Assembly (NCBI GenBank): GCA_015056015.1
Contig: SVHD01000025.1
Coordinates: 1 to 36,914, forward strand
Direction: 5' to 3'
Length of the DNA stretch: 36,914 bases
Origin: Clostridiales bacterium
GTDB lineage: Bacteria > Bacillota > Clostridia > Christensenellales > Aristaeellaceae
The notes beneath the pieces were generated by a model. That model was not told the DNA's origin. It saw only the letters and a list, made by a program, of their open reading frames with translations, and did no database searches. The position numbers and the translations under genes are program-made. Numbering within the stretch: the first letter of the stretch is position 1; every line of letters starts with the position of its first letter. This document shows positions 6,895-35,510 of this stretch, in pieces.

Positions 6895-6921
6895 AACTCC
6901 GTTCAGAATCGAGGTTCCTTT

Positions 6922-8889
6922 ATGCGTCAAGCCATCCTCAATCAGCCTCGCTTGGATTTTCTCTACGGCGGCGCTTCCTTTTCTGATTTATCTGTTGTTA
7001 AAGAGGAAACGAGCAAAGAAAATCAAGTCATTACTGTTTATACGCTGCAAGACGGAATAAAAATTACCAATGTGCTCACCTGGCACGGCGAAGCCTGCGA
7101 ATGGGTCAACTGGTTTGAAAATCCCAGCAATCAAAAAAGCGCGATTATTTCTTCTCTGCAGGATGCAAACATCATTTTGCCCATGGCACATGAGGATTTT
7201 TACGATCGCAGCGCCTGGCAGCAGGATTTTGCCAATGTGACCCAGATTCATGCACCCAGCGGTTCCCATTGGTCCTACGATGAATTTTCCTGCAATCCCC
7301 ATCGAATGGATGATGTGCGCTTCATCGGCCAAGCCGCTCCCAATCGTTCCAGGAAATATGCCAACAGCGGTGGAAGATCCAGTGATAAAAACGCGCCGTT
7401 TTTCAATATTCATTTTCAAGGGAGAGGCTATATCGCCGCCATCGGCTGGTCCGGCCAATGGAATTGCGAAATCCGGCGCCTGGAAGATGGCGTTCTCATC
7501 AAATCCGGTATTGAAGATACGCATTTCTGCCTGGAGCCCGGGGAAAAATTTCGTACGTCTTCCATCGTGATCATGCCATATGAAGGCGCGGTCATTGACG
7601 GGCAAAACCAATGGCGCCGGCTGGTGCGGGAGCATTTTTCCCTCATTGGTCAGCCGGGCCGGGATACGCATGGGCCTTTGTGCTTGAATGTGTGGGGCGG
7701 GATGAGCACCCAAGCCGTTCTCAAGCGTCTGGAAACTGCCTGCAAGAATCATCTGCCCTACGAATACCTGTGGATGGATGCGGGGTGGTATGGCATCGAT
7801 ACCGCCGCCACGCCGGATGAATTTGAGGGCGACTGGGCCGATCACACCGGCGATTGGCGGGTAAGCCCGTTGATTCACCCCAACCAGCTTAAAGACGTGG
7901 CAAACGCGGCGCATCAGGCAGGCATGAAATTTTTGTTGTGGGTTGAGCCGGAACGGGTCATCGCCACCACACCCATCGTTCAGGAACACCCGGAATACTT
8001 TTATCTCCCCAGCGATGAAAAAAGTCAAAACCGGCTGCTGAATTTGGGAAATCCAGACGCCTGGAATTATTGTCTGGAAACCCTTTCCGGACTCATTGAA
8101 ACCATTGGCATTGATTGCTATCGCCAGGATTTCAATATGCCGCCGCTGAATGATTGGCGCCATAATGATGCAGAAGACCGAAAATGCATTTCAGAAATCA
8201 AGCATATCAACGGCCTGTATCGCCTGTGGGATGCGTTGCTTGATCGTTTCCCCCATCTGCTGATTGATAATTGTGCTTCCGGTGGACGCCGCATCGATAT
8301 CGAGACCTTGCGCCGCAGCATTCCTTTATGGCGCAGTGATTATCAGTGCAGCGCCAATTTCCTGGTGGAGGCCTCACAGTGCCATCAGCTGGGCTTCAAT
8401 CAATGGCTTCCCTATTCCGGCAGCAGCACCGGAAGACTGTATGATACTTACCGGATGCGCAGCGCTTACACCCCTGCATTGGCAGCGCCATACGCATTCA
8501 GCGAACGGGATTCGTTCGGGGATGACCCGGAAAAAATGACCTGGCTTCGCCAATATTTGCTGGAATACTTAAAAGTGCGTCCCATGATGGAGGAGGATTT
8601 CTATCCCCTGACCACCATCAATGATTGCAAAGACGCCTGGTGTGCCGCGCAATTTGACCGTCCTTCTAAAAAAGATGGTTTGATTCAGGCCTTCCGCCGG
8701 GATGATTCGCCTTTTGAAACCGCATGTTTTTTCCTGTATGGTGTGAATGAAAACGCCCAGTATATTTTTACAGATGAGGATTCGGGCGAAGAAATCATCC
8801 TTGGCGGAAGAGAGCTGAAAGAAAAAGGGCTTTCCATCACGATTTCCCAAAAACGCGCCTCCCGACTGATCTTCTATCGCCAAATCTGA
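6922..8889 (+). CDS. GH36-family alpha-galactosidase-like enzyme (divergent paralogue)
   Basis: This 655-residue protein has an N-terminal beta-sandwich and a GH-D clan barrel with WMDAGWYG, FLLWVEPERV, nucleophile D403 in YRQDFNM, DNCASGGRRID and a second catalytic candidate D473 in WRSDYQ. The D403-D473 spacing of 70 equals that of the upstream enzyme, which supports an intact active site. The SDD motif is replaced by SDY, and the protein is about 70 residues shorter, placing it in a different GH36 branch whose members act on alpha-galactosides or related alpha-linked sugars. It starts 27 bp after the first enzyme and ends at a strong terminator, so the pair is cotranscribed. There is no signal peptide, so it is probably cytoplasmic. 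The exact substrate is unknown. Confidence 0.85.
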   Translation: MRQAILNQPRLDFLYGGASFSDLSVVKEETSKENQVITVYTLQDGIKITNVLTWHGEACEWVNWFENPSNQKSAIISSLQDANIILPMAHEDFYDRSAWQQDFANVTQIHAPSGSHWSYDEFSCNPHRMDDVRFIGQAAPNRSRKYANSGGRSSDKNAPFFNIHFQGRGYIAAIGWSGQWNCEIRRLEDGVLIKSGIEDTHFCLEPGEKFRTSSIVIMPYEGAVIDGQNQWRRLVREHFSLIGQPGRDTHGPLCLNVWGGMSTQAVLKRLETACKNHLPYEYLWMDAGWYGIDTAATPDEFEGDWADHTGDWRVSPLIHPNQLKDVANAAHQAGMKFLLWVEPERVIATTPIVQEHPEYFYLPSDEKSQNRLLNLGNPDAWNYCLETLSGLIETIGIDCYRQDFNMPPLNDWRHNDAEDRKCISEIKHINGLYRLWDALLDRFPHLLIDNCASGGRRIDIETLRRSIPLWRSDYQCSANFLVEASQCHQLGFNQWLPYSGSSTGRLYDTYRMRSAYTPALAAPYAFSERDSFGDDPEKMTWLRQYLLEYLKVRPMMEEDFYPLTTINDCKDAWCAAQFDRPSKKDGLIQAFRRDDSPFETACFFLYGVNENAQYIFTDEDSGEEIILGGRELKEKGLSITISQKRASRLIFYRQI

Positions 8890-9943: not shown

Positions 9944-10081
9944 ATGATGGGAAGAAAAGAAAATCGCCCGCCTCTGATGGAATTTTTCCCGCGGCCCGGC
10001 ATGCGGGAAATCCGCACAAAATCCATTCCAGCCATTCCACTGATCCGCAATGAAAGGATGATTCCGCATGGAGAAGAATAA
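9944..10081 (+). CDS. 45-residue ORF inside the spoVA operon
   Basis: This small open frame fits between spoVAB and spoVAC. It starts 2 nt after the spoVAB stop, has GGGAG 7 nt upstream, and overlaps the first 14 nt of spoVAC. The product is basic, rich in Pro, Arg and Met (MEFFPRPGMREIRTKSIPA), with no membrane segment or known motif. The tight packing and ribosome-binding site favour real translation, possibly as a coupling peptide or small spore protein. I know of no named spoVA subunit at this place, and it could be a chance frame. Confidence 0.45.
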   Translation: MMGRKENRPPLMEFFPRPGMREIRTKSIPAIPLIRNERMIPHGEE

Positions 10082-10535
10082 ACAAAGCGCCAAGGCTGCC
10101 GCTTGGGAAAATTATGCTGCCCTGGTGAAAAGAATTACGCCAAAATCCAAAATGGCCCAGGGCTGCCTGCGCGCTTTCTGGGTGGGCGGCAGCATATGCA
10201 CCCTCGGGCAGGCGCTTGCCGATATCGGCGTTTCCTTTTTGAATCTCACGGCTTCTTCCGCTTCCGCATTTTCCTCTATCACCCTGATTTTTCTCACCGC
10301 CCTGCTCACCGGCCTCGGGGTTTTTGACCGGATTGCACGATATGCAGGAGCAGGAACAGTGGTGCCCATTACCGGCTTTGCCAATGCCATGGTATCCCCG
10401 GCGATGGAATTTAAACCCGAGGGATGGGTATTGGGTACCGGCGCGCGGCTTTTTACCATCGCAGGCCCCGTACTGGTTTATGGGATATCCGCCTCTGTCG
10501 TCGTCGGCATTCTTTATTATTTCATTCGTTGGTAA
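10068..10535 (+). CDS. spoVAC: Stage V sporulation protein AC
   Basis: This is a membrane protein of the SpoVA channel; Bacillus SpoVAC behaves as a mechanosensitive channel for dipicolinic acid release. It has 155 residues: a basic cytoplasmic N-terminus with the conserved ITPKSK segment, then about four membrane helices. The signature LGVFDRIARYAGAGTVVPITGFANAMVSPAMEF is split here as LGVFDRIARYAGAG and TVVPITGFANAM. A GAAAGG site lies upstream of the ATG. It is followed 14 nt later by spoVAD. Confidence 0.95.
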   Translation: MEKNKQSAKAAAWENYAALVKRITPKSKMAQGCLRAFWVGGSICTLGQALADIGVSFLNLTASSASAFSSITLIFLTALLTGLGVFDRIARYAGAGTVVPITGFANAMVSPAMEFKPEGWVLGTGARLFTIAGPVLVYGISASVVVGILYYFIRW

Positions 10536-10549
10536 GGAGGGATCATCCC

Positions 10550-11569
10550 ATGGCCCAGCATCGAATCGGCAAGCAGACCATTGTTTTTCCAGGGAAACCC
10601 GGTATTCTTTCCTCCGCTGCGGTGGTCGGCCCCAAGGAAGGCCGCGGCCCCCTTGCAGATGGCTTTGATCTGGTGGTGAATGACGCCCTGTTCAACCAGG
10701 AAAGCTATGAACAGGCAGAGCATGCCATTTTTCGTGAAGCATGCGAAAAATGCCTGAAAAAAGGGAATTTTTCCAATACGGATGTACAGGCCATGCTGGG
10801 CGGTGATCTGCTCAATCAGATTATGGCTGCCTCTCTTTCCGCACGCGAATTATCCATTCCGTTTCTCGGGCTTTACGGGGCCTGCTCCACCATAGCAGAA
10901 TCCCTGATTCTTGGCGCCATTCTGGTGGATGGCGGCTATGCTGCGCCGGTTCTTTGTGCCGCCGGCAGCCATTTTTGCACGGCAGAACGGCAATATCGCT
11001 ATCCACTGGAATACGGTAATCAGCGCACGCCCGCCGCGCAATGGACCGTTACCGGTACCGGCGCCTGTCTGCTGGGCGCATCATCAAATCCGTGGGCGCG
11101 CATAACGCACGCCACGGCTGGGCGGGTAGTGGATATGGGCATTAAGGACGCCAATAACATGGGCGCTGCCATGGCCCCGGCAGCGGCCGATACGCTGATT
11201 GCTCATTTCAGGGATACAGGGCGCACACCACAGGATTATGATCAGATCATTTCCGGAGATTTGGGCCGGATTGGCAGCGAAATCCTGACGGAACTGATGA
11301 AAAAGAATGATTATCTGCTTACTCAGGATAACTATATGGATTGCGGGCTGAAAATATTTGATCCACGCGATGACGTGCATGCCGGAGGAAGCGGCTGCGG
11401 CTGCTCCGCTACCACGCTGAGCGCCTATATTCTGCCGAAAATTCGAAAACGCGAATGGAAACGTGTGCTCTTTATGGCTACCGGTGCCTTGCTTAGCACC
11501 ACCACCAGCCAGCAAGGCGAAACCATTCCCGGCGTAGCCCATGCGCTGGTGCTGGAAGGAGAGATGTAA
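10550..11569 (+). CDS. spoVAD: Stage V sporulation protein AD
   Basis: This is the soluble, thiolase-fold SpoVA subunit that binds dipicolinic acid at the inner spore membrane. It has 339 residues. Visible blocks are VFPGKPGILSSAAVVGPKEGRGPL at the N-terminus (shown as VFPGKPGI and VGPKEGRGPL), the thiolase-like GAC112STIAES segment, WTVTGTGACLLG, and the C-terminal GGSGCGCSATTLS. The ATG at 10550 has AAGGAGG 9 nt upstream; the frame is open further upstream but overlaps spoVAC. It runs directly into spoVAE. Confidence 0.96.
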   Translation: MAQHRIGKQTIVFPGKPGILSSAAVVGPKEGRGPLADGFDLVVNDALFNQESYEQAEHAIFREACEKCLKKGNFSNTDVQAMLGGDLLNQIMAASLSARELSIPFLGLYGACSTIAESLILGAILVDGGYAAPVLCAAGSHFCTAERQYRYPLEYGNQRTPAAQWTVTGTGACLLGASSNPWARITHATAGRVVDMGIKDANNMGAAMAPAAADTLIAHFRDTGRTPQDYDQIISGDLGRIGSEILTELMKKNDYLLTQDNYMDCGLKIFDPRDDVHAGGSGCGCSATTLSAYILPKIRKREWKRVLFMATGALLSTTTSQQGETIPGVAHALVLEGEM

Positions 11570-25167: not shown

Positions 25168-25195
25168 TTGATTATTTTATTCTTTTCGTTATAAT
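25168..25195 (+). promoter_or_regulatory. Promoter of spo0A and leader hairpin
   Basis: TTGATT (25168-25173), a 16-bp spacer and TATAAT (25190-25195). Immediately after it a bulged inverted repeat (25196-25223; TGACAT ... ATGTCA around an ATCTTC/GAAGAT stem) begins. No sigma-H-like site is evident to me. Confidence 0.65.
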
Positions 25196-25302
25196 TGACA
25201 TATATCTTCCAAAGAAGATGTCAGCCACTGATGAACCAAAGGGAAAAGTGGCGCGATAGGCTCAAGGGAAGAAAATGCCAAGAGAGGGGAACGGGAAATC
25301 GC

Positions 25303-26076
25303 ATGAATAAAATTCGTTTATTAATTGTGGAGGATAATGAAGAACTCAGGCGTGAATTGGTGGATTATTTTCAGGATCAACCTGAAATCATCATCGCCGG
25401 CGAATCCAGCAATGGGATTGAGGCGTTGCATGCCGTAAAAGAATCCCAGGTGGATGTAATGCTGCTGGATATGATCATGCCCGTGCTGGATGGTTTTGGC
25501 GTTCTGCAGCAATTGCAGAGTATTCCCGCCGAAAAACGGCCGCAGGTGATTTCGGTAACCGGTCTGGGACGGGATGATTTCATCCGTCGCGCGGTGGATC
25601 TCGGGGTAAGCTATTATATGGTAAAGCCCATCGAATTGCCCGTTCTCCTGGAACGGGTACAGGATGTAATGCGTCAGGCGCCAGCAACGCCCACGGATCA
25701 TCACGGAATTCACTTCAGCGGCATGAGCCTGGATGATCGCCTATCCAATCTGTTTCTGACCATGGGCATCCCTGCCCATATCAAGGGCTATCAATTTCTT
25801 CGGGAAGCCATCAAGCAGGTGATCGAAAATCCCAATATGATCAGCGGCATCACCAAAGAACTCTATCCCGCCATTGCCAGGCGTTTTGGCACAACCTCCA
25901 GCAAGGTGGAGCGCGCTATCCGCCACGCCATTGAAGTGGCATGGAGCCGGGGCCGTGTCGATACCCTGAACAAAGCCTTTGGCTGCTGCGTGGCGCTGAA
26001 GGATGAAAAGCCCACCAATGGTGAATTCATCGCGCTGATCAGCGACAAATTCAGAATGGAGGATATCAGTGCGTAA
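25303..26076 (+). CDS. spo0A: Sporulation master regulator Spo0A
   Basis: This is the response regulator that commits the cell to sporulation when phosphorylated. It has 257 residues. The N-terminal receiver domain has an acidic pair (E10, D11), phospho-acceptor D56 in MLLDMIMP, T86 and K108 in VKPIE. The C-terminal effector domain contains the nearly invariant recognition helix SSKVERAIRHAIEVAWSRG and the tail KPTNGEFIALISDKF. The ATG at 25303 gives the expected N-terminus MNKIRLLIVED; sequence further upstream is leader. Two Spo0A boxes and a sigma-A-type promoter precede it, and a terminator follows. A decayed partial copy of its 3' end lies 640 bp downstream. Confidence 0.97.
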   Translation: MNKIRLLIVEDNEELRRELVDYFQDQPEIIIAGESSNGIEALHAVKESQVDVMLLDMIMPVLDGFGVLQQLQSIPAEKRPQVISVTGLGRDDFIRRAVDLGVSYYMVKPIELPVLLERVQDVMRQAPATPTDHHGIHFSGMSLDDRLSNLFLTMGIPAHIKGYQFLREAIKQVIENPNMISGITKELYPAIARRFGTTSSKVERAIRHAIEVAWSRGRVDTLNKAFGCCVALKDEKPTNGEFIALISDKFRMEDISA

Positions 26077-26140
26077 GGGTTCGCGCGACCTGAAGGAACT
26101 TGCGCCTGTGATTTTTTGAACCTATGAACTTAAATCCTGA

Positions 26141-26170
26141 GTCAGACACGTTACGTGTCTGGCTTTTTTG
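26141..26170 (+). terminator. Terminator of spo0A
   Basis: A 10-bp GTCAGACACG/CGTGTCTGGC stem (one G-T pair) with a 3-nt loop is followed by six T. Confidence 0.88.
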
Positions 26171-26253
26171 CTGCCGGAATACGAAAGTGTGCATAATAAT
26201 TGTGACGGTAATATAAGAGTGATAACAAAAAATGGAAATCTTCCAGAAATTAC

Positions 26254-26282
26254 TTGTAAAAAAATGTAATAAGTGGTAAACT
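26254..26282 (+). promoter_or_regulatory. Candidate promoter of the mini LPETG gene
   Basis: TTGTAA (26254-26259), a 17-bp spacer and TAAACT (26277-26282) lie in an AT-rich stretch about 75 bp upstream of the broken gene. The boxes match consensus at four of six positions each. Confidence 0.45.
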
Positions 26283-26359
26283 ATCATGGAATAAATTGGT
26301 AACAAAATCATTATCCCAACATCAAAATTGCAGCATGAACTGATAATGGAGGATTTATG

Positions 26360-26618
26360 ATGAGCAGAAGTTTGAAATGGCTGGGGGTGCTGGCAGCGGC
26401 GTTTTGTTTGCTGTGCGGCGGAAGCGCCCTGGCAGAGGACACCCGCTTTGACTGCGACTGCACAGATCACCGACAAGTGCGAGGCGCTCATCGCCCTGCT
26501 GTCCTGGCAGCTTCCTGAAACCGGCGATAATTTTGCGCCTCACCTGTGGTGGGGAGCGATCCTGGTGTGCGGCGCGCTGCTGTATCTGCTGGTGCGCAAA
26601 AAGGGCCGGACGGTTTGA
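26360..26618 (+). pseudogene. Frameshifted small LPETG-anchored surface protein
   Basis: The reading frame from ATG 26360 (GGAGGA 6 nt upstream) encodes a signal peptide (KWLGVLAAAFCLLCGGSALA) but stops at 26516. In the +1 frame, open from 26376, the sequence reads TDKCEALIALLSWQLPETGD, then a membrane helix (LWWGAILVCGALLYLLV) and a basic tail KKGRTV, ending at 26618. Signal peptide, LPETG, helix and positive tail are the full set of sortase-substrate features, so one base has been gained, or two lost, between them. The repaired product would be only about 85 residues. The gene could be decayed, or the shift could be a sequencing error. It is richer in GCG/CTG codons than its neighbours, suggesting transfer. 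Confidence 0.65.
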
Positions 26619-26622
26619 CACG

Positions 26623-26645
26623 TTTCCAAGCATAATGCCTGGAAA
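26623..26645 (+). repeat. Inverted repeat after the LPETG gene
   Basis: The TTTCCAaGCAT and ATGCcTGGAAA arms form a hairpin 5 bp after the stop codon. Without a T run it is a weak terminator at best. Confidence 0.5.
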
Positions 26646-26690
26646 GGCTGATTTTCCCTGTATTTCCCGCCGAGGAAAGCTGCGGCCCGG

Positions 26691-26794
26691 GTAGATTCCC
26701 TGAATAAAGCGTTGGGCTGCCGATGCCGAAAGATGAATAGCCTGCCAATGGGGAGTTCATCGCACTGATTACCGATAAGCTTTCCGTGAATTGA
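26691..26794 (+). pseudogene. Remnant of the 3' end of a second spo0A
   Basis: This fragment matches the 3' part of the intact spo0A (25957-26049). It begins VDSLNKALGC (against VDTLNKAFGC), and after a net 4-nt deletion continues KDE-stop-PANGEFIALITDK (against KDEKPTNGEFIALISDK), ending at a TGA. A TAG at 26738-26740 replaces a Lys codon. By my count about 16 of 81 aligned bases differ, 12 of them at third codon positions. That pattern means the copy diverged while still under selection as a protein before it broke. Similarity fades upstream of about 26690. Confidence 0.8.
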
Positions 26795-26802
26795 TCTGAA
26801 TC

Positions 26803-26831
26803 AAAAGAGGATGCGTTGCGCATCCTCTTTT
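26803..26831. terminator. Terminator between the spo0A remnant and the glycan operon
   Basis: A 13-bp perfect stem (26803-26815 with 26819-26831) has a 3-nt loop. T runs on either strand allow it to end the reverse-strand operon and any forward transcript. Confidence 0.8.
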
Positions 26832-26836
26832 CTCAG

Positions 26837-28534
26837 TTAGCCTTTTTTCAAGGTGTACTTCATTTCGTTGTAGTCCACCGTCACCACACTGCCGTCAGAA
26901 TAGGTGATCTGATAAATATTATCCGCGATCTTTTCATGGTTTTCCATAAATTCATACTGCAGATACTGCAGCTCATTGTATTGATCCATCTGCATTTTCA
27001 GGGCGTTGGTATCCCGCTGAATCTTTTCCGGGGAAGCCACGGTGAAATCGGTATCCCCCATCCAGTCCTTACCGTCGCTGACAAATTTGGAATAGTAATA
27101 TACCGCAGGCCGCCCGCCGCATTCAATCCATTTCAGTTTATTCTTTTCATCCTGGCTGATGGCCGCATTCACAGTAGCCGCATAGGGGTTATACAGCAAA
27201 ATGCCATGGAATACCAATTCAAAGAAGGGAATGTATTCATCCACAATGGGCTGATCATCCGTATCCCGCAGGAAAGAGGCATACAGAATATAATCCACAT
27301 TGCGCATGCTGTATTCATAGGAGCTTTCGCAGGCCGCGCCGCCAAAGAGCTTCTTTGCCGTCAGGAATAATTCATCAAAGCATTTACCCGCTTCCTTCTT
27401 GTTTACCGGATGATCGGGATGATAGCATTTCCGGGGCACGGTGCAGGTAATAACATCGATATAATGCAGCCCGCGGAAGCCCAGATCGGCTACGGGCTTT
27501 AAACTCTCTTCCCCTAATTCCATGGCCCGCTTGGGACATACATTGTAGGTGCGCCCGCCAGCCCAGTAGGTGGTTTCGATGCTCACATCCCCATTGCGGG
27601 TGCGGGCAATATTATAAAGATCGAAATTATCGGCGATGGAATAGGCGTCGGTGCTGTTGGTATGGCATACCACCCGATATCCCGCGTCATTGGCGGTTTT
27701 GATCAGGCTGCGCAGCCCTTCTTCCCCGCCCAAACTTTCTTCCACCGGCAGAATCTGAGGCCAGCGACCGTCATGGCCCTTGATATTCCAGCCTACCAGG
27801 CAGAATTCCACTTTTTCGATTCCGGCGGCCTTGTAAGCGTGGATAATATCCTCCACATCTTTGAAGGTACAGGCCACATGCATGGGCGGTTCATTTTCTG
27901 CCGTCTGATCCGGAATGGAGCAGGGAACCGGCTTCCAGCCGTGACGAATGCGCACATAGGCGGATTCCGCAGCATACTGGATTTCATCATTCAATTTATC
28001 CTTCAGGGGCGTAAAGCCGCATTCCAGCTTATAGGCCCGATAAGCCCGTGCCATGGCGCTGTAGGTGGGCTTTTCATCCAGAAACATCTGATGCACGCGG
28101 ATGGGCTCATAGGGCATTTCCCCATCAATATCAATGCGGAAGGCCAATTGATAGGCGTCGGCCTGAATCGTCACCAGCTGGCTGGAATTTTCCGCCATGC
28201 CGGTAACGGATGCCAGAAAGCCCTGATTTTCCACGGCCAGGCCAAGAATCGGCATATAGGCGTCAATATTCTTGAATACGGTATCCTCCCGATGATGGAA
28301 ATAACCCAGGGCACATTCGTGAATTTTGCATTTGCCCCAGCCGCCGGGCAGCAGATAGAAGCCTTCCGTGCCAGCCTTGATCCATTGCCGGTTCAGCACG
28401 ATATCCACCGATGCAATCTGGTCAAAGGGATAATCATGCCGCATTTCATAATCCGCTGTTTTGCCATTCTTTTGCATCGTGGCTTCCGCCAGTTCACGGC
28501 GTCCATCCAGATAATTGAGATAGAAATCAAACAT
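26837..28534 (-). CDS. DUF5696-like putative glycoside hydrolase
   Basis: This 565-residue cytoplasmic protein has an N-terminal beta-sandwich (to about residue 180) and a predicted TIM barrel with KVEFCLVGWNIKGHDGRWPQ-type sugar-binding loops (quoted in part), HTNSTDAYSI, and candidate catalytic acids D360 in LHYIDVITC and E403 in CESSYEYS. I associate this layout with DUF5696, a family related to endo-alpha-N-acetylgalactosaminidase-type enzymes; that assignment is from memory of the pattern and is moderate. The ATG at 28534 is chosen for GGAGG 9 nt upstream. It is last in a four-gene operon after an SGNH esterase, 19 bp apart. The substrate is unknown. Confidence 0.6.
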   Translation of the reverse strand: MFDFYLNYLDGRRELAEATMQKNGKTADYEMRHDYPFDQIASVDIVLNRQWIKAGTEGFYLLPGGWGKCKIHECALGYFHHREDTVFKNIDAYMPILGLAVENQGFLASVTGMAENSSQLVTIQADAYQLAFRIDIDGEMPYEPIRVHQMFLDEKPTYSAMARAYRAYKLECGFTPLKDKLNDEIQYAAESAYVRIRHGWKPVPCSIPDQTAENEPPMHVACTFKDVEDIIHAYKAAGIEKVEFCLVGWNIKGHDGRWPQILPVEESLGGEEGLRSLIKTANDAGYRVVCHTNSTDAYSIADNFDLYNIARTRNGDVSIETTYWAGGRTYNVCPKRAMELGEESLKPVADLGFRGLHYIDVITCTVPRKCYHPDHPVNKKEAGKCFDELFLTAKKLFGGAACESSYEYSMRNVDYILYASFLRDTDDQPIVDEYIPFFELVFHGILLYNPYAATVNAAISQDEKNKLKWIECGGRPAVYYYSKFVSDGKDWMGDTDFTVASPEKIQRDTNALKMQMDQYNELQYLQYEFMENHEKIADNIYQITYSDGSVVTVDYNEMKYTLKKG

Positions 28535-28553
28535 GGTATTCATCCTCCGTTTC

Positions 28554-29702
28554 TTATTTACGGTATGTTTGCCGGGATGCATCCCGGGTAATGACAGCTG
28601 CAATCTTCATCGTATCCGGCGCATTCCCTTCAAACAGGGGCCGCAAGCGGATTGTATGCTTTCCAGGCTTCAAATCCTGGGCCAGCATCAGCGGATTATG
28701 GCTGGAACAGGGAATGCGGCGATATTCCTCACCATCCAGAGAAAGCAGCACCTGGGCGGAACGCAATTTCCAATTTGCAAAATTGGAAAGCACAGCAATT
28801 TCTGTTCCGTCACAATCAAAGATAAATTCCGCATCCGGCTGATTCGTATAAACGCAGCCGATATGGGGCGTTTTAGGGATATTCAGGAAGCATTCATCGG
28901 AATAGGCAAAGCCCGGCGCATTTTTCAGCCATTCCCGGCTACAGGAATACCATTTCCGATCCCCATCCAGCAGATGATCGCTGAAAATGGGCGGAAGCGC
29001 GGAGGGGGGATCCGTTTCCTCAGAATAATCCGTATCAAGCAGGCTGTGATGCAAATATTCCTTCAGGCATTCCCAGTAGGCGGCATAGCCCGCATCGGTT
29101 GGGTGCACTGTATCCAGAAAATATTTCTTCCATTTTTCCTCAGTGATTTCACCCAATTGTGCGCCCAGTGCCCGGCTGACCCAGAGGGTGGGAATATCAT
29201 AATAAACTGAAATCCTTTCATGGCCCTGGGCGGCCGGATAGAGCGCTTCATCCTGAATGGTGTTTCGTCCATCGGTAATCAGGGTAACAATATCGCAATC
29301 GGGGCATTTTTCCTTTACCGCCCGCACGATGGTTTCATATTGCAGGCCGGCCTGTTTTTCATCGGCCTGATGTGCACTGTCATTAAAGGCATATTCAATA
29401 AATAATAAATCCGGCCTGAGGGAAATGATATCCCGATCCAGGCGATATACCCCAAGATACGTACCGCTTTCCCCCACGGCGGACCGGATCAATTCAATTT
29501 CCGCCTGGGGAAACATTTCACGAAACCATTTTCCGGATAATGCCCGCCAGGATTTCTCTTCAACATCCGTGCTGCCAAAGCCCACCGTAATGGAGCCGCC
29601 GAAGTAAACGATCCGGAGCTTTTTATCCTTTGTCAGCTTTTCATAGGTACGCTTGAGCGTTCCCCGGGCATGAATAAACTGCGCGTGTTGATTTTCCGCC
29701 AT
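28554..29702 (-). CDS. SGNH/GDSL-family hydrolase (probable carbohydrate esterase)
   Basis: This 382-residue protein has the SGNH blocks in order: GGSIT with nucleophile S37, block II Gly in SAVGESGT, block III N107 in EYAFND, and D197-x-x-H200 in DTVHPTD. A C-terminal beta-sandwich of about 130 residues follows (LSLDGEEYRR, LKPGKHTIRLRPL), often a substrate-binding jelly roll. It likely removes acyl groups from sugars. No signal peptide is present, so it acts on imported oligosaccharide. An AAGGAGG-like site precedes the ATG. Third in the operon. Confidence 0.85.
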   Translation of the reverse strand: MAENQHAQFIHARGTLKRTYEKLTKDKKLRIVYFGGSITVGFGSTDVEEKSWRALSGKWFREMFPQAEIELIRSAVGESGTYLGVYRLDRDIISLRPDLLFIEYAFNDSAHQADEKQAGLQYETIVRAVKEKCPDCDIVTLITDGRNTIQDEALYPAAQGHERISVYYDIPTLWVSRALGAQLGEITEEKWKKYFLDTVHPTDAGYAAYWECLKEYLHHSLLDTDYSEETDPPSALPPIFSDHLLDGDRKWYSCSREWLKNAPGFAYSDECFLNIPKTPHIGCVYTNQPDAEFIFDCDGTEIAVLSNFANWKLRSAQVLLSLDGEEYRRIPCSSHNPLMLAQDLKPGKHTIRLRPLFEGNAPDTMKIAAVITRDASRQTYRK

Positions 29703-29737
29703 CAGAGCGATCCTCCTTCGCGAATAAAAACGCTTTC

Positions 29738-31759
29738 TTATTCCACTTCAACAATAGCAAGAGAATTGGCCTCAAGGAACGCAGGCATTGCCTCTCCACT
29801 GCCAACAATGGTTTCATACCGCATTGCTTTCATGCCGGAAAGCTTCAATTGCACCGGCCGCGTTTCTTCCGTGTCATTCCAGAGTACAAGCACGCTTTTT
29901 CCGTTTTCTCCCAGGAAGCGGGTGGCAATCAGTGAAGGATCATCATTTTCGATTCCTTCATCCGCCCGGAAGGTACCCAGCAGCAGATAATCCTCATATT
30001 TCCGCCGCAAATCGGCAACGGCCCTGGAATATTTCCTCATTTCCGGTTCTGCATCATTCCGGATATCCCTTTGGTCAGTAAGATATCGCAGCTCCATTTC
30101 AAATTTACAGCCGAAGGCCACCGCATAATTGACCATTCTTTCAGCCATGTAAGGCTTGGGATTGCGAACGGTGCACATGGCCTCCGGGAAGGTATAGCGG
30201 AAAAGCTGTGGCATCTTATGCCATCCTTTTCCCTCATGCCGAGATCCGGGATCCGAACCAATCCCATGAATGCAATCAAGGAACTGGGAATAGGCGTCCG
30301 TCGCATGCTCAGACATGAAAGCAAAATTCGGATGGCTTTTTACCTTCTTCTGAATGGCCTGATGCAATTTTAATCTGCCCTGAGAATAGGAAAGGGAGGG
30401 TTTGTTATGCAGATGATTATGCTTTTCATTGAAGCAGGGATAGGGCGGCATGCCGCCAATCTGATCATACAGCGCACCATCTGCGCCAAAGGAAGCAATC
30501 CAGTCAATCTTATCAGCCATCAATTCATGCCATTCCTCGCAGGAGGGGCAAACCGTGGAAAACACCCGGCGGGAAAATTTCCGCGCAAAATCGCTGAAGC
30601 AGGCCTTTGGATAGAATTCGTAATAGGGATTATTGTAAATGGTGCGTCCTTCCAGTTCCCTTCCCTTTTCCTGATAGAAGGGGCTGTTTATGTCCATCAA
30701 ATGTCCCTGGTAATAAAGGGTTACATGGCCGCCCATACCATGCACAATGTCAATTCCCTTTTTCAGGCCCTCCGCGCCGCCCATGCTGGGGCTTACCTCA
30801 AGATCGGGATACAGATTATCATGTCCGGTGTGATACCAGCCAAAGAGGCCCAGCGCATCAAAGCCATGGGCCATTGCATGCTCATATAATTCCGGCAGCG
30901 TTTCATAGGGCCACGTTTCATCGCCATATTGCTGCTTATTGATCACCAGGAAATAGCCGTTCATCTTTTTCACCCAATCCTGAACGGCCACATGTTTTCT
31001 CCAGGTCTGGGCCCAGGCAGCATATTCATCCGCCCCCTCACGCCAGGAGCCTTCATATAGCCGGGCAACAGCCCTGGGAGCAGCCCAGGTTTCCCCCGGC
31101 TTCACAAAGCACATTTTATTCAGTTCCAGCGTCACCCCGCCCGTTTTCTCGCCCTTTACGCGAAGAGAAGCCACATGGAGCAATTCATCATAGCTGGCAA
31201 AATACAGGCATTGCCGCTTCCCGGTCAGCGCCATCCAGCTCATGGAAAGGTTCCCCGGATAGTTTTCCTGAATTTCATATAGAGCTTCCCGGGCGGTCAT
31301 ATCCCGGAGCACCGCCTCCACATCTTCAACTCGTTCCCCAAGCTGTCGTGGCCAGAGAAGATCCATTTTCCCTTCATCCAGGTGCTGAATCGCGCCAACA
31401 CAGGGATAGAATAGTTCACTGACGGTGGATCGGCTGCCGTTTTCTACCCTTGCATCAAAGCAAATGTGATCCCTATCCAGGGTAATTTTCATTTCTACAA
31501 GGATGGCCGCTTTCCCGCTGCGGGCATGAATTTCAGGAACGCGCACAAAAATGGCCTTATTTTCACAGGATACGCAATAATCCTGATCCTCGCCAAAGGC
31601 CATATCCTCATAGTTGGTTCCGGTATGAAGATTCATCCGGAATAAGGGCTTGGGATCCACAATCAGATTTCCTGTTCCGGCTTTCAGATTTTCCAGGCAA
31701 GTCACGCGTCCATTTTCATCCACGGCCAGTTTCAGCCATTCATTTTGAAGCGTAATCAT
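29738..31759 (-). CDS. DUF6259-like putative glycoside hydrolase
   Basis: This 673-residue protein has an N-terminal beta-sandwich (1-about 235), a TIM barrel, and a C-terminal beta domain (FLGENGKSVLVLWNDTEETR). Barrel landmarks are GFDALGLFGWYHTGHDNLYP, HVTLYYQGHLMD, the strand-4/5-type GADGALYDQIGG (D432) and FMSEHATDAY (E484), which are my candidates for the catalytic pair. The whole pattern resembles DUF6259 proteins, for which no activity is firmly known to me. AAGGAG precedes the ATG, 9 bp after the upstream GH42-like gene. Second in the operon. Confidence 0.65.
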   Translation of the reverse strand: MITLQNEWLKLAVDENGRVTCLENLKAGTGNLIVDPKPLFRMNLHTGTNYEDMAFGEDQDYCVSCENKAIFVRVPEIHARSGKAAILVEMKITLDRDHICFDARVENGSRSTVSELFYPCVGAIQHLDEGKMDLLWPRQLGERVEDVEAVLRDMTAREALYEIQENYPGNLSMSWMALTGKRQCLYFASYDELLHVASLRVKGEKTGGVTLELNKMCFVKPGETWAAPRAVARLYEGSWREGADEYAAWAQTWRKHVAVQDWVKKMNGYFLVINKQQYGDETWPYETLPELYEHAMAHGFDALGLFGWYHTGHDNLYPDLEVSPSMGGAEGLKKGIDIVHGMGGHVTLYYQGHLMDINSPFYQEKGRELEGRTIYNNPYYEFYPKACFSDFARKFSRRVFSTVCPSCEEWHELMADKIDWIASFGADGALYDQIGGMPPYPCFNEKHNHLHNKPSLSYSQGRLKLHQAIQKKVKSHPNFAFMSEHATDAYSQFLDCIHGIGSDPGSRHEGKGWHKMPQLFRYTFPEAMCTVRNPKPYMAERMVNYAVAFGCKFEMELRYLTDQRDIRNDAEPEMRKYSRAVADLRRKYEDYLLLGTFRADEGIENDDPSLIATRFLGENGKSVLVLWNDTEETRPVQLKLSGMKAMRYETIVGSGEAMPAFLEANSLAIVEVE

Positions 31760-31768
31760 GTTTTCTCC

Positions 31769-33814
31769 TTATTTTTCGTCAATTGGAACGATTTCCAGCA
31801 GCAGCGTTTCCCCAAATTTCATTTCCACATCGATAAAGCATTCGTTGCCGGGCAGGATTTTTCCTGTAAAAGCCTCCCTGAGCTGCGCTTTTTTCGGAAT
31901 GCAGATGCGCTTCACGCCGTCGCTGGCAGCATGAATGGAAATGAAGCGATGGCTTGCATCAATCACTTCCCCGGAGAAATTGTATACCTGCCCGCCGGCG
32001 GCGCATACCAGTTGCCGCAATCGATCAGGTTCAAGCGTCATATTCCTGCATGCGTAAAGGCTGTAATCAGAATATCGGCGCAGTATTTCCAACGCATTTC
32101 CATTTTCGTTTTCTGAAATAATCACGTTGCCACGCTGCGCCACGGGGAATCCCTGCGCATCAAACGCCATCGTGTCGGGGCATCTTTCCTGGCCCTTTCC
32201 GGCAAATGCAATCAGTCGATCCTTATTTTTCCAGTTTTCCAGCGCCGCAATCCGCTCCTCATTCCAGTGGCTGGGCGCAATCAGAAGCGCCATCCGGTAA
32301 TCATCAGGATTTACATGTTTAAGATCGCTGAAAAGATACATATGATAGCCGGTGCCCATGAACCCCAGATTTTTTTTCAATTTGGACCCGCTGGTCTGGG
32401 AGCCAACCGGAGCAGGCCTGGCAATCTCAGGGATTACCTCCTGATATAATTCTTCATCCAGGAACAGCGCGATAGGCGCATCGGTTTTCGCGCCGCCTGA
32501 AAAAGCATGCTCACGATAAATTTCCGCTGCCTTTTGATGGAAAGCCATCAATTCTTGATCATCATACCAGCCGCCCCACATATCAAACCACCAGATGGCG
32601 GTATTATGGCACAGCGCCTTTCCCAGCACCTTTTTCATCTGGCCCAGCGAGCCCTCCAGCGTATCCGGGCCAAGCCAGACCTTGCTATCGTAGTATCTTG
32701 CCACCACCGGATCCGCATGAGGCATGCACTGGCTGATGGGCCGGGAAAGCATGGTGCGCACGTCCGCTTCAATAAACCAGGGCTTGCCATGCAATTGCGC
32801 GGAAGCCACCACCCCTGGGAAGGGCCAATCCACCCCCTGCGCCCTCTGATCCATATATGCCAGCGGGCTGGCCAGGAAATCCACCGCATCGCTTTGAAGC
32901 ACCATTTCCATGGCATTATGACCTTGCTCCAGACCACAGGTGGTATAGCCGTAAAAGCCGCCGATCACCTGCTGATTCTTTGTGGCCCGCTTGGCCATTT
33001 TGCATAGATCAATCAGCATCTGGGCGTTCATTTGATTCTGGAAGGCGTAATAATCAATGGTCTGCATTTCAAATTCCCGGCTGCGGAATATTTCGCCCAC
33101 GCCAAAAAGACGCTTTGCCGGGCTGGGAATCGTTATTTCTTCCCAGTTCCCATAATTTGTGCGCCAAGCCTCATTCAGCTTTTCCAGTTGATTGGCATAT
33201 TTTTGCATGCTCCATGCCCGGAAACCCGCCTGGGCGCGCGGGGAATAATCCATCAGCTGCATGGGATGGAGGGATGGCCGCAGATATTCTTCCGTATTTC
33301 CGCAGGCCACATGCCACCCCGCCACAAATTGATCGTATCCCTTTTCTTCAATCCAGCGCTGAAAGGCAATTATGATTTCTTCCGTGTCCTGCTTCCATTT
33401 TTCTGAGCAGGCGCTGTGATGCATTGGCGTTCCCTGGGCGTCCCGGCATAATTCGTCGGGGTTCATCCGATCCCACCAGGAAGGCGGCTCCAGCATCAAT
33501 CGGGGAATCAGATAATCTTCCCCCGGAATGCAATGCTTCAAAATCAATTCAAAGGTTTTTTCCGCTGCCGAAAAATCATATTGGCCGTAGCCTTTCCAGA
33601 ATCCTGGACAAAAGGGACGAATACCACTGTTTTGGTTGATGCCCCGGTCGCCTGCATAAACGCAGGGAAAAAACAGATGCACGCCGGCCTTTCTGAAATC
33701 GCCGTAACAGGCCTTTTCCGGCTGATAGGACATATAACCGTACATGGGGATTTGTTTTCCATCCACTTCCAGCAAATCCATGTGTTTCCTGCGGATAATC
33801 CTGCTCTTCAACAT
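31769..33814 (-). CDS. GH42-like beta-galactosidase-family hydrolase
   Basis: This 681-residue protein begins with a TIM barrel of beta-galactosidase type. It has DFRKAGVHLFFP, LMLEPPSWW, a GNTEEY acid/base candidate (E175), the GH42-typical DYSPRAQAGFRAW with LEKLNEAW, and the nucleophile candidate E349 in PWFIEADVRT. A trimerisation-like middle domain (APIALFLDEELYQ) and a small C-terminal beta domain follow. It may cleave beta-galactosides or other beta-linked sugars; the acid/base neighbourhood differs from classic GH42. It is first in the operon, with AAGGTGG 8 nt before the ATG; a second ATG at codon 12 is less supported. No signal peptide is visible. Confidence 0.75.
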   Translation of the reverse strand: MLKSRIIRRKHMDLLEVDGKQIPMYGYMSYQPEKACYGDFRKAGVHLFFPCVYAGDRGINQNSGIRPFCPGFWKGYGQYDFSAAEKTFELILKHCIPGEDYLIPRLMLEPPSWWDRMNPDELCRDAQGTPMHHSACSEKWKQDTEEIIIAFQRWIEEKGYDQFVAGWHVACGNTEEYLRPSLHPMQLMDYSPRAQAGFRAWSMQKYANQLEKLNEAWRTNYGNWEEITIPSPAKRLFGVGEIFRSREFEMQTIDYYAFQNQMNAQMLIDLCKMAKRATKNQQVIGGFYGYTTCGLEQGHNAMEMVLQSDAVDFLASPLAYMDQRAQGVDWPFPGVVASAQLHGKPWFIEADVRTMLSRPISQCMPHADPVVARYYDSKVWLGPDTLEGSLGQMKKVLGKALCHNTAIWWFDMWGGWYDDQELMAFHQKAAEIYREHAFSGGAKTDAPIALFLDEELYQEVIPEIARPAPVGSQTSGSKLKKNLGFMGTGYHMYLFSDLKHVNPDDYRMALLIAPSHWNEERIAALENWKNKDRLIAFAGKGQERCPDTMAFDAQGFPVAQRGNVIISENENGNALEILRRYSDYSLYACRNMTLEPDRLRQLVCAAGGQVYNFSGEVIDASHRFISIHAASDGVKRICIPKKAQLREAFTGKILPGNECFIDVEMKFGETLLLEIVPIDEK

Positions 33815-33860
33815 CGTTTATTACCACCTTCTGTAAGTTTTTTTCTTCTTTCTGATTATA

Positions 33861-33889
33861 AATATACCGCATTTTTTCATCGGTGACAA
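33861..33889 (-). promoter_or_regulatory. Sigma-A promoter of the four-gene glycan operon
   Basis: TTGTCA (33884-33889), 17 bp and TATATT (33861-33866) lie on the reverse strand, 46 bp upstream of the GH42-like start. Confidence 0.8.
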
Positions 33890-33934
33890 CCTAAATTTCG
33901 TAGGCATTTTGTTTTTTTCCATGCGTAAAGGCCA

Positions 33935-33963
33935 CAAAAAAGAGGAAAAGCACGCTTTTCCCC
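33935..33963 (-). terminator. Terminator separating the beta-sandwich gene from the operon
   Basis: A GGGGAAAAGC/GCTTTTCCTC stem (one mismatch) is followed on the reverse strand by TTTTTT, just after the stop of the 190-residue gene. Confidence 0.75.
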
Positions 33964-33982
33964 TGATGCCGTTATGCGGTTT

Positions 33983-34555
33983 TTATCTCACTGAGAATTC
34001 ATAGGCCCGGGCAATGCCCTCGCACATGGTCAGGCCGAAATGAAATTTTTCAAACAAATCTTCTGTCCGCAGGCTAGTTTCCCATCCATCCACGGAAAAT
34101 ACCAGATTATTCTCCTGAATTTCCACCTGCAGCGTATGGATTTCTTCCTCCGCCACAGGAATTTTCACGCCTACCCGCTTATGCCACCAGCACTTATGAT
34201 CTTCATCCATAAAATGCCGCCACACATTGACGCCATCCTTATAGAGCACCACTTCAAAGCAGGCACCATAGCGCACTTCCCCATCAGGACAGTTTTCCGG
34301 CTTTTCCACAAGGATAATTTCCGGGCAGCCCAGGCCTTCAAAGGCGCAGCGAAGCGTGGCCTTGGCGCCGACGCCATAGGTTTCTTTGGTCAAAAAGCTG
34401 ATATTGTCAAATCCTTCCCGGTGCTCGGGGTTGGGATCACTGGCGATGCAATCTTCCTTCTGACGAATAGGCGGAGTTTCCGTAAATCGGAAAGAATAGG
34501 CCTTTTGCAATTCATTCTGCTGCCATTTTCCTTCGGCAAAACTAATACTTTTCAT
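33983..34555 (-). CDS. Beta-sandwich (concanavalin-like) protein, unknown function
   Basis: I do not recognise this 190-residue protein exactly. It is beta-rich and has the pattern of single-domain LamG/concanavalin-like or DUF1080-like lectin folds (GACFEVVLYKDGVNVWRH, LQVEIQENNLVFSVDGWE, FHFGLTMCEGIARAYEFSV, each in part). There is no signal peptide. It lies upstream of the glycan operon on the same strand but is separated from it by a terminator. Its promoter is a perfect consensus and the GAAGGAG start site is strong, so it is probably abundant. It may be a sugar-binding or sugar-processing accessory. Confidence 0.6.
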   Translation of the reverse strand: MKSISFAEGKWQQNELQKAYSFRFTETPPIRQKEDCIASDPNPEHREGFDNISFLTKETYGVGAKATLRCAFEGLGCPEIILVEKPENCPDGEVRYGACFEVVLYKDGVNVWRHFMDEDHKCWWHKRVGVKIPVAEEEIHTLQVEIQENNLVFSVDGWETSLRTEDLFEKFHFGLTMCEGIARAYEFSVR

Positions 34556-34584
34556 TTTTTCATTCTCCTTCGTATTTGTTTTGC

Positions 34585-34613
34585 ATTATAGACTTATTTT
34601 GCATTTCTGTCAA
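34585..34613 (-). promoter_or_regulatory. Perfect-consensus promoter of the beta-sandwich gene
   Basis: TTGACA (34608-34613), a 17-bp spacer and TATAAT (34585-34590) lie 29 bp before the start on the reverse strand. Confidence 0.9.
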
Positions 34614-34710
34614 TCGCTCATCTTCCCGACGCTAATTATTCGATTGATTGAAAATCGGATTTCCCTGTCCAGAATAATTTAATTTTTGTCACCCATTTTT
34701 CCAGGATTCA

Positions 34711-34719
34711 TGTTATAAT
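34711..34719 (+). promoter_or_regulatory. Extended -10 promoter element of the ThuA-like gene
   Basis: TGT-TATAAT (TG-n plus perfect -10) lies 65 bp before the start. TTGTCA at 34686-34691 is 22 bp away, too far for a classic -35. The rest of the divergent gap is AT-rich. Confidence 0.5.
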
Positions 34720-34784
34720 GATAATCGATAATAATTCGGATCTATGATTCCCCCTTATCAATATGCATTCAGGAGGTTTTTCAA

Positions 34785-35510
34785 ATGAAGGTAACCGTAT
34801 GGAATGAAAACCAGCATGAAAAGACGGAACCCCGGGTGACGGAGCTCTATCCCGGCGGCATCCATGCCTATCTGGCCCAGATGCTTCAGTGCGATGATAT
34901 TCAGTGCCGCACTGCCACCCTGGATGAGCCCGAATGCGGCCTGACGGAAGAAGTGCTCAACGATACCGACGTGCTCATCTGGTGGGGGCATATGGCCCAC
35001 GCCCGGGTGCCCGATGAAATCGTTGACCGTGTGCAGCAGCATGTGCTGGCCGGCATGGGGATGGTTTTCCTCCATTCCGGTCATCACTCCAAGATTTTCC
35101 GTCGCCTGATGGGCACCACCGGCAATCTCAAATGGCGTGAAAATGCCAAGGAGCGCATCTGGACCACGTGCCCCAATCACCCCATCACCAAGGGCATTCC
35201 CGAAACCTTCACCCTGGATGCAGAAGAAGTATACGGCGAGCCCTTTGGCATTCCCGAGCCCCAGGAAACCATCTTCATCAGCTGGTTTGACGGCGGCGAG
35301 GTTTTCCGCAGCGGCTGTACCTGGACCCGGGGCAACGGACGAATCTTCTATTTCCAGCCCGGACACGAAACCAATCCCACCTTTCATAATCCCTATGTAC
35401 AGCAGATCATCAAAAACGGCGTGCACTGGGTATGCCCCGTGGAAAAGAATCTGCCCCTTACCTGCCCCCGCGTTACCGCGCTGGAGCCCATTTCCAGCCC
35501 CTGCAAATAA
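34785..35510 (+). CDS. ThuA-like trehalose-utilisation family protein
   Basis: This 241-residue protein has the class-I glutamine-amidotransferase-like fold of the ThuA family. Visible are [10 protein letters not shown] at the N-terminus, the strand [29 protein letters not shown], and a C-terminal [18 protein letters not shown] with [11 protein letters not shown]. ThuA proteins are linked to trehalose or other sugar and sugar-ketone metabolism in bacteria, with no certain activity. The AGGAGG site before the ATG is strong. It has its own promoter and terminator and lies divergent from the glycan-associated genes, which suggests the same sugar economy. Confidence 0.88.

Follow-up and report, generated by a model that had tools for sequence, protein, structure and literature searches.

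The DNA examined here is contig SVHD01000025.1 of assembly GCA_015056015.1, from a gut-dwelling Clostridiales bacterium (Aristaeellaceae); the whole stretch of 36,914 nucleotides (nt) is referred to as the window. It is contig 32 of a draft genome of 2.9 Mb in 106 contigs that is 84.5% complete. Between 33814 and 26837, on the minus strand, lie four complete open reading frames (ORFs) whose products each exceeded the curated Pfam cut-off of their own family, two of these families being DUF6259 and DUF5696. The set (genes 1 to 4) is a putative operon of carbohydrate enzymes, with the following features.

33964 to 33941, minus strand: terminator-like site after the upstream gene of 190 amino acids (aa), setting the operon apart from that gene.
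33889 to 33861, minus strand: promoter-like site TTGTCA-17-TATATT, 10 of 12 consensus positions.
33814 to 31769, minus strand: gene 1, GH42-like, 681 aa; PF02449, expectation value (E) 6.9e-15.
31759 to 29738, minus strand: gene 2, DUF6259 clade, 673 aa; PF19773, E 3.8e-23.
29702 to 28554, minus strand: gene 3, putative SGNH acetylesterase resembling RiCE17, 382 aa; PF13472, E 9.3e-18.
28534 to 26837, minus strand: gene 4, DUF5696, GH129-like, 565 aa; PF18952, E 1.1e-45.
26831 to 26803, minus strand: terminator-like hairpin with a 13-bp inner stem and four T at its end, 5 bp past the last stop.

The genes are separated by 9, 35 and 19 bp, and a purine-rich ribosome site lies 5-9 nt upstream of each of the four ATGs. 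The ORF list starts gene 4 at TTG 28603; ATG 28534 is the better fit and was preferred because GGAGG precedes it. A preliminary description of this DNA had reported close packing (gaps of 9-35 bp), no visible signal peptides and no transporter or regulator within the set, and all three were borne out. None of the four proteins had a hydrophobic N-terminus on the Kyte-Doolittle scale (no dedicated signal-peptide predictor was used): the best 12-residue means were 0.04, 0.49, 1.32 and -0.24 for genes 1 to 4, compared to 2.66, 3.08 and 3.48 in three proteins with signal-like N-termini. No transporter or regulator gene lies between the four genes, and family scans recognized no sugar transporter or sugar regulator among them or their scanned neighbors, the next scanned gene downstream being that of the sporulation regulator Spo0A. 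Because the genome is a draft, a transporter or a duplicate locus may be missing from it. The same description had proposed one promoter and one terminator. Support for the terminator is strong, since the end hairpin has a stability of -22.5 kcal/mol (z -5.18) and 0 of 200 shuffles were as stable; it is absent from the terminator scan listing, probably because its T tract has only four residues. The promoter-like site fits by position, but 16 such sites were found in 25500-35000 compared to 13.0 +/- 3.3 in shuffles, so that an operon promoter is plausible from its position and not proven. Taken with the tight spacing and the ribosome sites, the placement of the four genes between this site and the hairpin makes an operon plausible. 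The GC content at third codon positions (GC3) was 0.53-0.60 for the four genes, within the 0.53-0.67 of 11 neighbors, and base composition thus gave no sign of horizontal transfer.

Gene 4 is clearly GH129-like in sequence. A single-sequence search of solved structures matched it to NagBb (5wzn), the GH129 alpha-N-acetylgalactosaminidase of Bifidobacterium bifidum, at E 6.6e-20 over NagBb residues 214-529. With a profile of six DUF5696/GH129-like sequences (alignment A3, which left out L033/L041 with an in-frame stop, L072 at 40%, and two weak ones, L073 and L074, at 26%), the match reached E 3.5e-35 and covered NagBb residues 160-630 of 640; the first 159 residues stayed unaligned even then. 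Weaker matches of the same profile were 8rzg, an unnamed periplasmic protein (4.9e-12), DagB (5opq, 5.5e-12) and the GH101 endo-alpha-N-acetylgalactosaminidases (1.5e-5). Glu E403 of gene 4, present in 6 of 6 sequences, aligns with the NagBb Glu that we count as 478 and take to be the second catalytic residue, the acid/base. D360, likewise found in all six, aligns with Asp435, reported as a catalytic residue of NagBb (PMC5698469). W324 (Trp in five sequences, Tyr in one) aligns with Trp398, the sugar platform by which NagBb, together with Ca2+, is described as recognizing N-acetylgalactosamine (GalNAc) (PMC8106489). Another report gives NagBb no signal peptide and locates it in the cytosol (PMC7232152). 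Gene 4 therefore resembles NagBb in the catalytic Asp, the aligned Glu, the platform Trp and the lack of a visible signal peptide, although the two are distant. We propose that it encodes an alpha-glycosidase in which D360 would be the nucleophile, E403 the putative acid/base and W324 the platform.

DagB, a 3,6-anhydro-D-galactosidase, has been proposed to fall outside GH129 since its second catalytic residue differs, and is described as cutting a sugar other than that of NagBb (PMC5698469). Because gene 4 keeps a Glu at the second catalytic position, it is closer than DagB to NagBb in that respect. These common residues bear on a reading of the set as salvage of mucin-type O-glycan stubs, with gene 4 freeing GalNAc from GalNAc-Ser/Thr like NagBb and the other enzymes trimming acetylated host glycans. 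The nearest relative, genome G002, points the same way with a sialidase-like BNR gene close to one of its DUF6259 homologues (L066, PF13088, E 6.4e-17). However, DUF5696 stands well apart from NagBb, as the single-sequence E value and the unaligned NagBb N-terminus indicate, its relative DagB acts on a different sugar, and neither a GalNAc kinase nor a deacetylase is among the four genes; we regard mucin salvage as distinctly unlikely.

Scanned neighbors of the DUF5696 relatives were AraC, amidohydrolase, flavoprotein, CoA-ligase, URO-D, FGGY kinase or Gfo/Idh genes, with no constant partner in the genes scanned. The source genome has a DUF5696 paralogue (43%; L011, 6181-14600) among AraC, amidohydrolase, flavoprotein, CoA-ligase and AllG-like genes, and a homologue in another genome (L041, G110 contig 49) carries one in-frame TGA.

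Gene 2 appears to be a second, remote member of the GH101/GH129 superfamily in the set. Comparison by hhalign of 14 DUF6259 members (alignment A4) with A3 gave E 1.1e-9 and a probability of 96%, with D432 of gene 2 aligned to D360 of gene 4, compared to E 0.31, 0.32 and 0.55 when these profiles were run against two clan GH-A profiles as controls. The Pfam DUF5696 model matched 9 of the 14 DUF6259 members at E <= 1 (best 6.5e-5), and the DUF6259 and GH101 models each matched 6/6 A3 members at E <= 0.1 (best 9e-10 and 2.4e-5, respectively); gene 4 itself scored 25.1 bits against DUF6259 (cut-off 28.7) and 20.6 bits against GH101 (cut-off 25). Within the DUF6259 gene of locus L017, gene 4 gave a short match that was counted as a family cross-match of this kind and not as a second gene. 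Both D432 and E484 are invariant (14/14); E484 lies just beyond the end of the hhalign alignment, two residues off register with E403. We propose D432 as a putative nucleophile and E484 as a putative acid/base. The pairs D432/E484 and D360/E403 had been proposed beforehand, on the sequence alone; all four residues exist and are invariant in their alignments, and D360/E403 fall at the catalytic positions of NagBb. The accompanying description of the two as belonging to families without known activity is not supported in that wording, since they are not unrelated unknowns: gene 4 is clearly GH129-like, and gene 2 appears to belong, remotely, to that superfamily too.

We scanned 84,980 species' genomes for DUF6259 with two peptide patterns, a procedure that undercounts such loci, and confirmed 13. 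Four of them (L075, L076, L079 and L080) appear, by their length and matches, to be the same contigs as L065, L037, L066 and L038, respectively, from an earlier set, so the two sets of loci are not independent. A GH50-like gene was found in 5 of the 13 (L075, L076, L077, L078 and L081). Between GH50-like and GH42-like, these partners are placed as GH50-like by their profile (A5), which matches the GH50 agarase 4bq2 at E 2.2e-72. Permeases and a binding protein were present in three loci (L076, L078, L081), and Pfam confirmed the permeases, the binding protein and the RpiR regulator in L037 (= L076). Four loci (L076, L077, L078, L081) had a ManA-like protein, by weak TIGR00218 matches (E 0.0011 and 0.0091); three (L075, L076, L078) had an RpiR regulator and an epimerase; and three had a sugar kinase, of ROK type in L076 and L077 and of BadF/NagK type in L078. 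An AraC regulator adjoined the DUF6259 gene in L079, L080, L082 and L083 (4/13). None of these partners was shown by the remaining four loci, three from Planctomycetaceae and one from Dyadobacter, in which the extended reading frames start with secretion-like segments (measured in L084 and L087 only). The titles of 3/13 loci name roe deer rectum or omasum.

In L076, L078 and L081, from gut Clostridia and a Sphaerochaeta, the DUF6259 enzyme is 47-53% identical to that of the window and, as in the window, stands beside a clan GH-A enzyme. Unlike the window, these loci carry permeases, a binding protein and a ManA-like protein, with RpiR and epimerase genes in two of the three; the DNA compared held no match to the SGNH, DUF5696 or GH42-like proteins of the window. 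The recurring pairing of DUF6259 with a clan GH-A gene, in which the GH-A member appears to be exchanged, is the best comparative support we have, and it speaks for the pair and not for a four-gene pathway. As a separate observation, GH50 is known from a marine agar setting, and the five agarase-like genes found here lie outside it, in sugar loci carried by gut Clostridia and a Sphaerochaeta.

Gene 1 matched Pfam GH42 at 55.7 bits (cut-off 21) over residues 108-299, and its family profile matched the solved GH42 structure 6lvw at E 1.6e-9. The profile was built from gene 1 and five relatives (alignment A2; L009, L067, L068, L069 and L013). Those left out were mostly lower-scoring relatives, but also G266 (2.3e-35) and G364 (8.4e-33), which score about the same as L013 (2.1e-33), together with the source genome's own two paralogues, C17 and C34. 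E176, in GNTEEY, is invariant in all six sequences and is preceded by Glu in five and Gln in one; E349, in KPWFIEAD, is also invariant (6/6) and follows an invariant K344, the GH42 matches stopping before it. The acid/base motif of GH42 is an Asn-Glu pair, and this pair was seen in the GH42 rows of the structure-search alignment; gene 1 differs from the GH42 beta-galactosidases in having Glu or Gln where they have Asn. Alignment with the GH50-like profile (E 2.2e-6) places Asn-Glu two residues before the position given by the GH42 alignment, which leaves the register around E176 ambiguous and uncertain. Since the Asn-Glu pair is replaced and the register uncertain, we call gene 1 GH42-like and not GH42. 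It is probably a glycosidase of clan GH-A type in which the E176 region is the putative acid/base and E349 the putative nucleophile.

Relatives of gene 1 lie near sugar genes in 3 of the 5 other A2 loci: not far from a GH2 gene and an ATP-binding cassette (ABC) transporter in L009, two genes from a SASA-type esterase in L068, and adjoining a GH28 gene in L069. Of the two L067 neighbors, one could be assigned to no family and the other matched GH99 below threshold, and in L013 no sugar partner was seen by eye (no family scan). A 730-aa gene in L009, considered as a DUF2264 candidate, is not claimed as such, as Pfam found nothing. A scan of viral contigs for gene 1 relatives gave 19 pattern matches and 0 relatives.

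The best solved relative of gene 3 was 6hfz (E 4.7e-15, residues 16-236). This structure is RiCE17, described as an SGNH domain followed by a CBM35 and as acting on 2-O-acetyl groups of mannan (PMC9487903). Gene 3 is similar to RiCE17 in size (382 vs 378 aa), in having the SGNH domain first and in having an extra domain behind it, and its catalytic motifs are present (S37, N107, D197 and H200). They differ in that no C-terminal CBM35 was detected by sequence in gene 3, in which the last ~145 residues gave CE2_N as their sole match, below threshold (E 0.005). Gene 3 thus resembles a RiCE17-like SGNH acetylesterase, and because of this homology the acyl group removed would most likely be acetyl.

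If gene 3 were a true CE17 mannan esterase, the set could be a pathway for acetylated galactoglucomannan, in which the other three enzymes and two GH36 enzymes encoded in the window finish mannan oligosaccharides. RiCE17 being the closest solved relative is consistent with this, as are the two GH36 genes of the window and a model in which Faecalibacterium prausnitzii employs GH36, CE2 and CE17 intracellularly (PMC8262883). Four of the 13 DUF6259 relatives have a ManA-like protein alongside, and one of these (L077) also has GH36, which adds to it. However, the ManA matches are far below cut-off, the RiCE17 match is limited to the SGNH domain, and no GH113, GH130, GH26 or CE2 is among the four genes. 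Moreover, we know of no GH129-like enzyme that acts as a mannan enzyme. We consider the mannan pathway unlikely.

The distribution of the genes was assessed in sets of 29 (genus), 120 (family) and 391 (class) genomes, the source genome counted in. At E 1e-30, gene 1 was found in 2 genomes (the source and G002, 79% identical; among 60 genomes including the genus), gene 2 in 3/29 (the source, G002 at 69% and G015 at 30%) and gene 4 in 2/29, and gene 3 was found in 5/29 at 1e-15, the four others being 30-32% identical. Within the family, gene 2 occurred in 9 genomes, gene 3 in 4 and gene 4 in 6 (1e-30), and within the class gene 1 occurred in 9 (1e-20). In G002, an AraC-type regulator and a binding protein are encoded near the GH42-like gene, along with GH2 and a pair of permeases, of which the second falls short of the Pfam cut-off (E 2.8e-5); the DUF6259 gene is accompanied by GH50-like, RpiR-type regulator and aldose epimerase genes. 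The gene-order check proposed earlier for a linked transporter found transporters beside relatives of single members. The G002 DUF6259 gene is duplicated in tandem (L065/L075, 1-7355), and its second copy, cut by the contig end, shares 71% identity with the protein of the window across 332 residues; elsewhere in G002 (L066, 4442-10925), a DUF6259 gene has GH36-like and BNR sialidase-like neighbors.

Several results weigh against a single four-gene pathway of the kind proposed below. Outside the window, no stretch compared by tblastn contained two or more of the four genes together; the comparison covers the stretches fetched and not every match, and several contigs are short, so that absence of a neighbor in them says little. 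In G002, the GH42-like and DUF6259 homologues are on different contigs, the DUF5696 homologue is only 40% identical and on a third contig, and no SGNH match was found at E 1e-10; the binding protein by its GH42-like gene gave 14 matches in the source genome, the best at 36%, with no clear counterpart. At the level of the enzymes, gene 2 searched directly against solved structures had no significant match (NagBb came at E 0.26), a 5-sequence DUF6259 profile gave no relevant match, and the Asn-Glu acid/base pair of GH42 was absent from the six aligned gene 1 sequences. The earlier claim that the four genes form one pathway consequently has no second stretch to stand on. A gathering, by accident or in recent times, of sugar genes that are unrelated, co-transcribed and directed at different substrates would fit both the absence of the set elsewhere and the fact that each gene's relatives sit in separate places beside different partners. 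Nevertheless, each of the four products has the look of a carbohydrate enzyme lacking a signal peptide, DUF6259 is again paired with clan GH-A, through another GH-A member, in 5 of the 13 loci, and GC3 is even over the four genes and like that of the neighbors; such a gathering seems to us quite improbable.

Other features of the window concern its neighboring genes. The 190-aa ORF just upstream of the operon (34555-33983, minus strand) has no Pfam or NCBIfam family and is preceded by a promoter matching the sigma-70 consensus at 12/12 positions (34613-34585, minus strand). Two adjacent GH36 alpha-galactosidase genes lie at 4708-8889 on the plus strand, about 18 kb from the operon. Genes for SpoVAC, SpoVAD and Spo0A at 10068-11569 and 25195-26076 (plus strand) indicate that the organism is probably a spore former.

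Taken together, we favor, at a probability of roughly 55%, a reading of the four genes as a cytoplasmic oligosaccharide-dismantling operon that combines Asp/Glu retaining alpha-cutters with deacetylation and beta-cleavage. Homology, layout, the lack of visible signal peptides and the conserved candidate catalytic residues are the observed part of this explanation. An acetylated oligosaccharide would be imported through a transporter encoded elsewhere, and the gene 3 enzyme would strip its acetyl groups. The gene 1 enzyme, as a presumed clan GH-A member, may act at the non-reducing end and release a beta-linked hexose, for example galactose. The products of genes 2 and 4 would attack alpha-linked residues of galactose type, be it Gal, GalNAc or anhydro-Gal, as retaining enzymes with an Asp nucleophile and a Glu acid/base. 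Beta- and alpha-linked terminal residues would be taken off alternately within the cell. The clues to the substrate are split: kinship with GH129 and GH101 would favor galactose-type alpha linkages, and the esterase and the ManA-like protein of the relatives would favor mannan. Intracellular deacylation and dismantling had been part of the preliminary description as well; enzymes without signal peptides that join deacylation to glycosidic cleavage agree with it, while the idea of one pathway lacks comparative support.

A report on F. prausnitzii places a CE17 homologue inside the cell, after ABC import, and models intracellular deacetylation and exo-cleavage with CE17-type esterases (PMC8262883). 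The beta-mannooligosaccharide loci of F. prausnitzii and R. intestinalis, as described there, share with the proposed operon import followed by intracellular deacetylation and exo-cleavage, but use other glycosidase families and have the transporter as part of the system. Given this model and the cytosolic NagBb, the logic of the pathway is familiar and its parts are new. The set is a known type of glycan operon in a new arrangement; it includes two glycosidase branches not yet characterised, and its parts are found in separate loci in relatives. In the literature collection searched, and in that collection only, we found no mention of DUF5696, DUF6259, PF18952 or PF19773.

A broader proposal is more tentative. 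DUF6259 and DUF5696 might be two new GH families of a GH101/GH129 clan, cytoplasmic alpha-cutters paired with interchangeable GH-A beta-cutters (GH42-like here, with a rearranged acid/base site, and GH50-like in relatives), which would dismantle an alternating alpha/beta acetylated oligosaccharide residue by residue. For the two Pfam families of unknown function, the analysis provides a testable catalytic identity, with candidates for nucleophile and acid/base and a nearest solved relative, and the operon brings together four closely packed enzyme genes whose products could be tried jointly. If this identity is confirmed, the GH101/GH129 group would reach beyond the enzymes of mucin and carrageenan.

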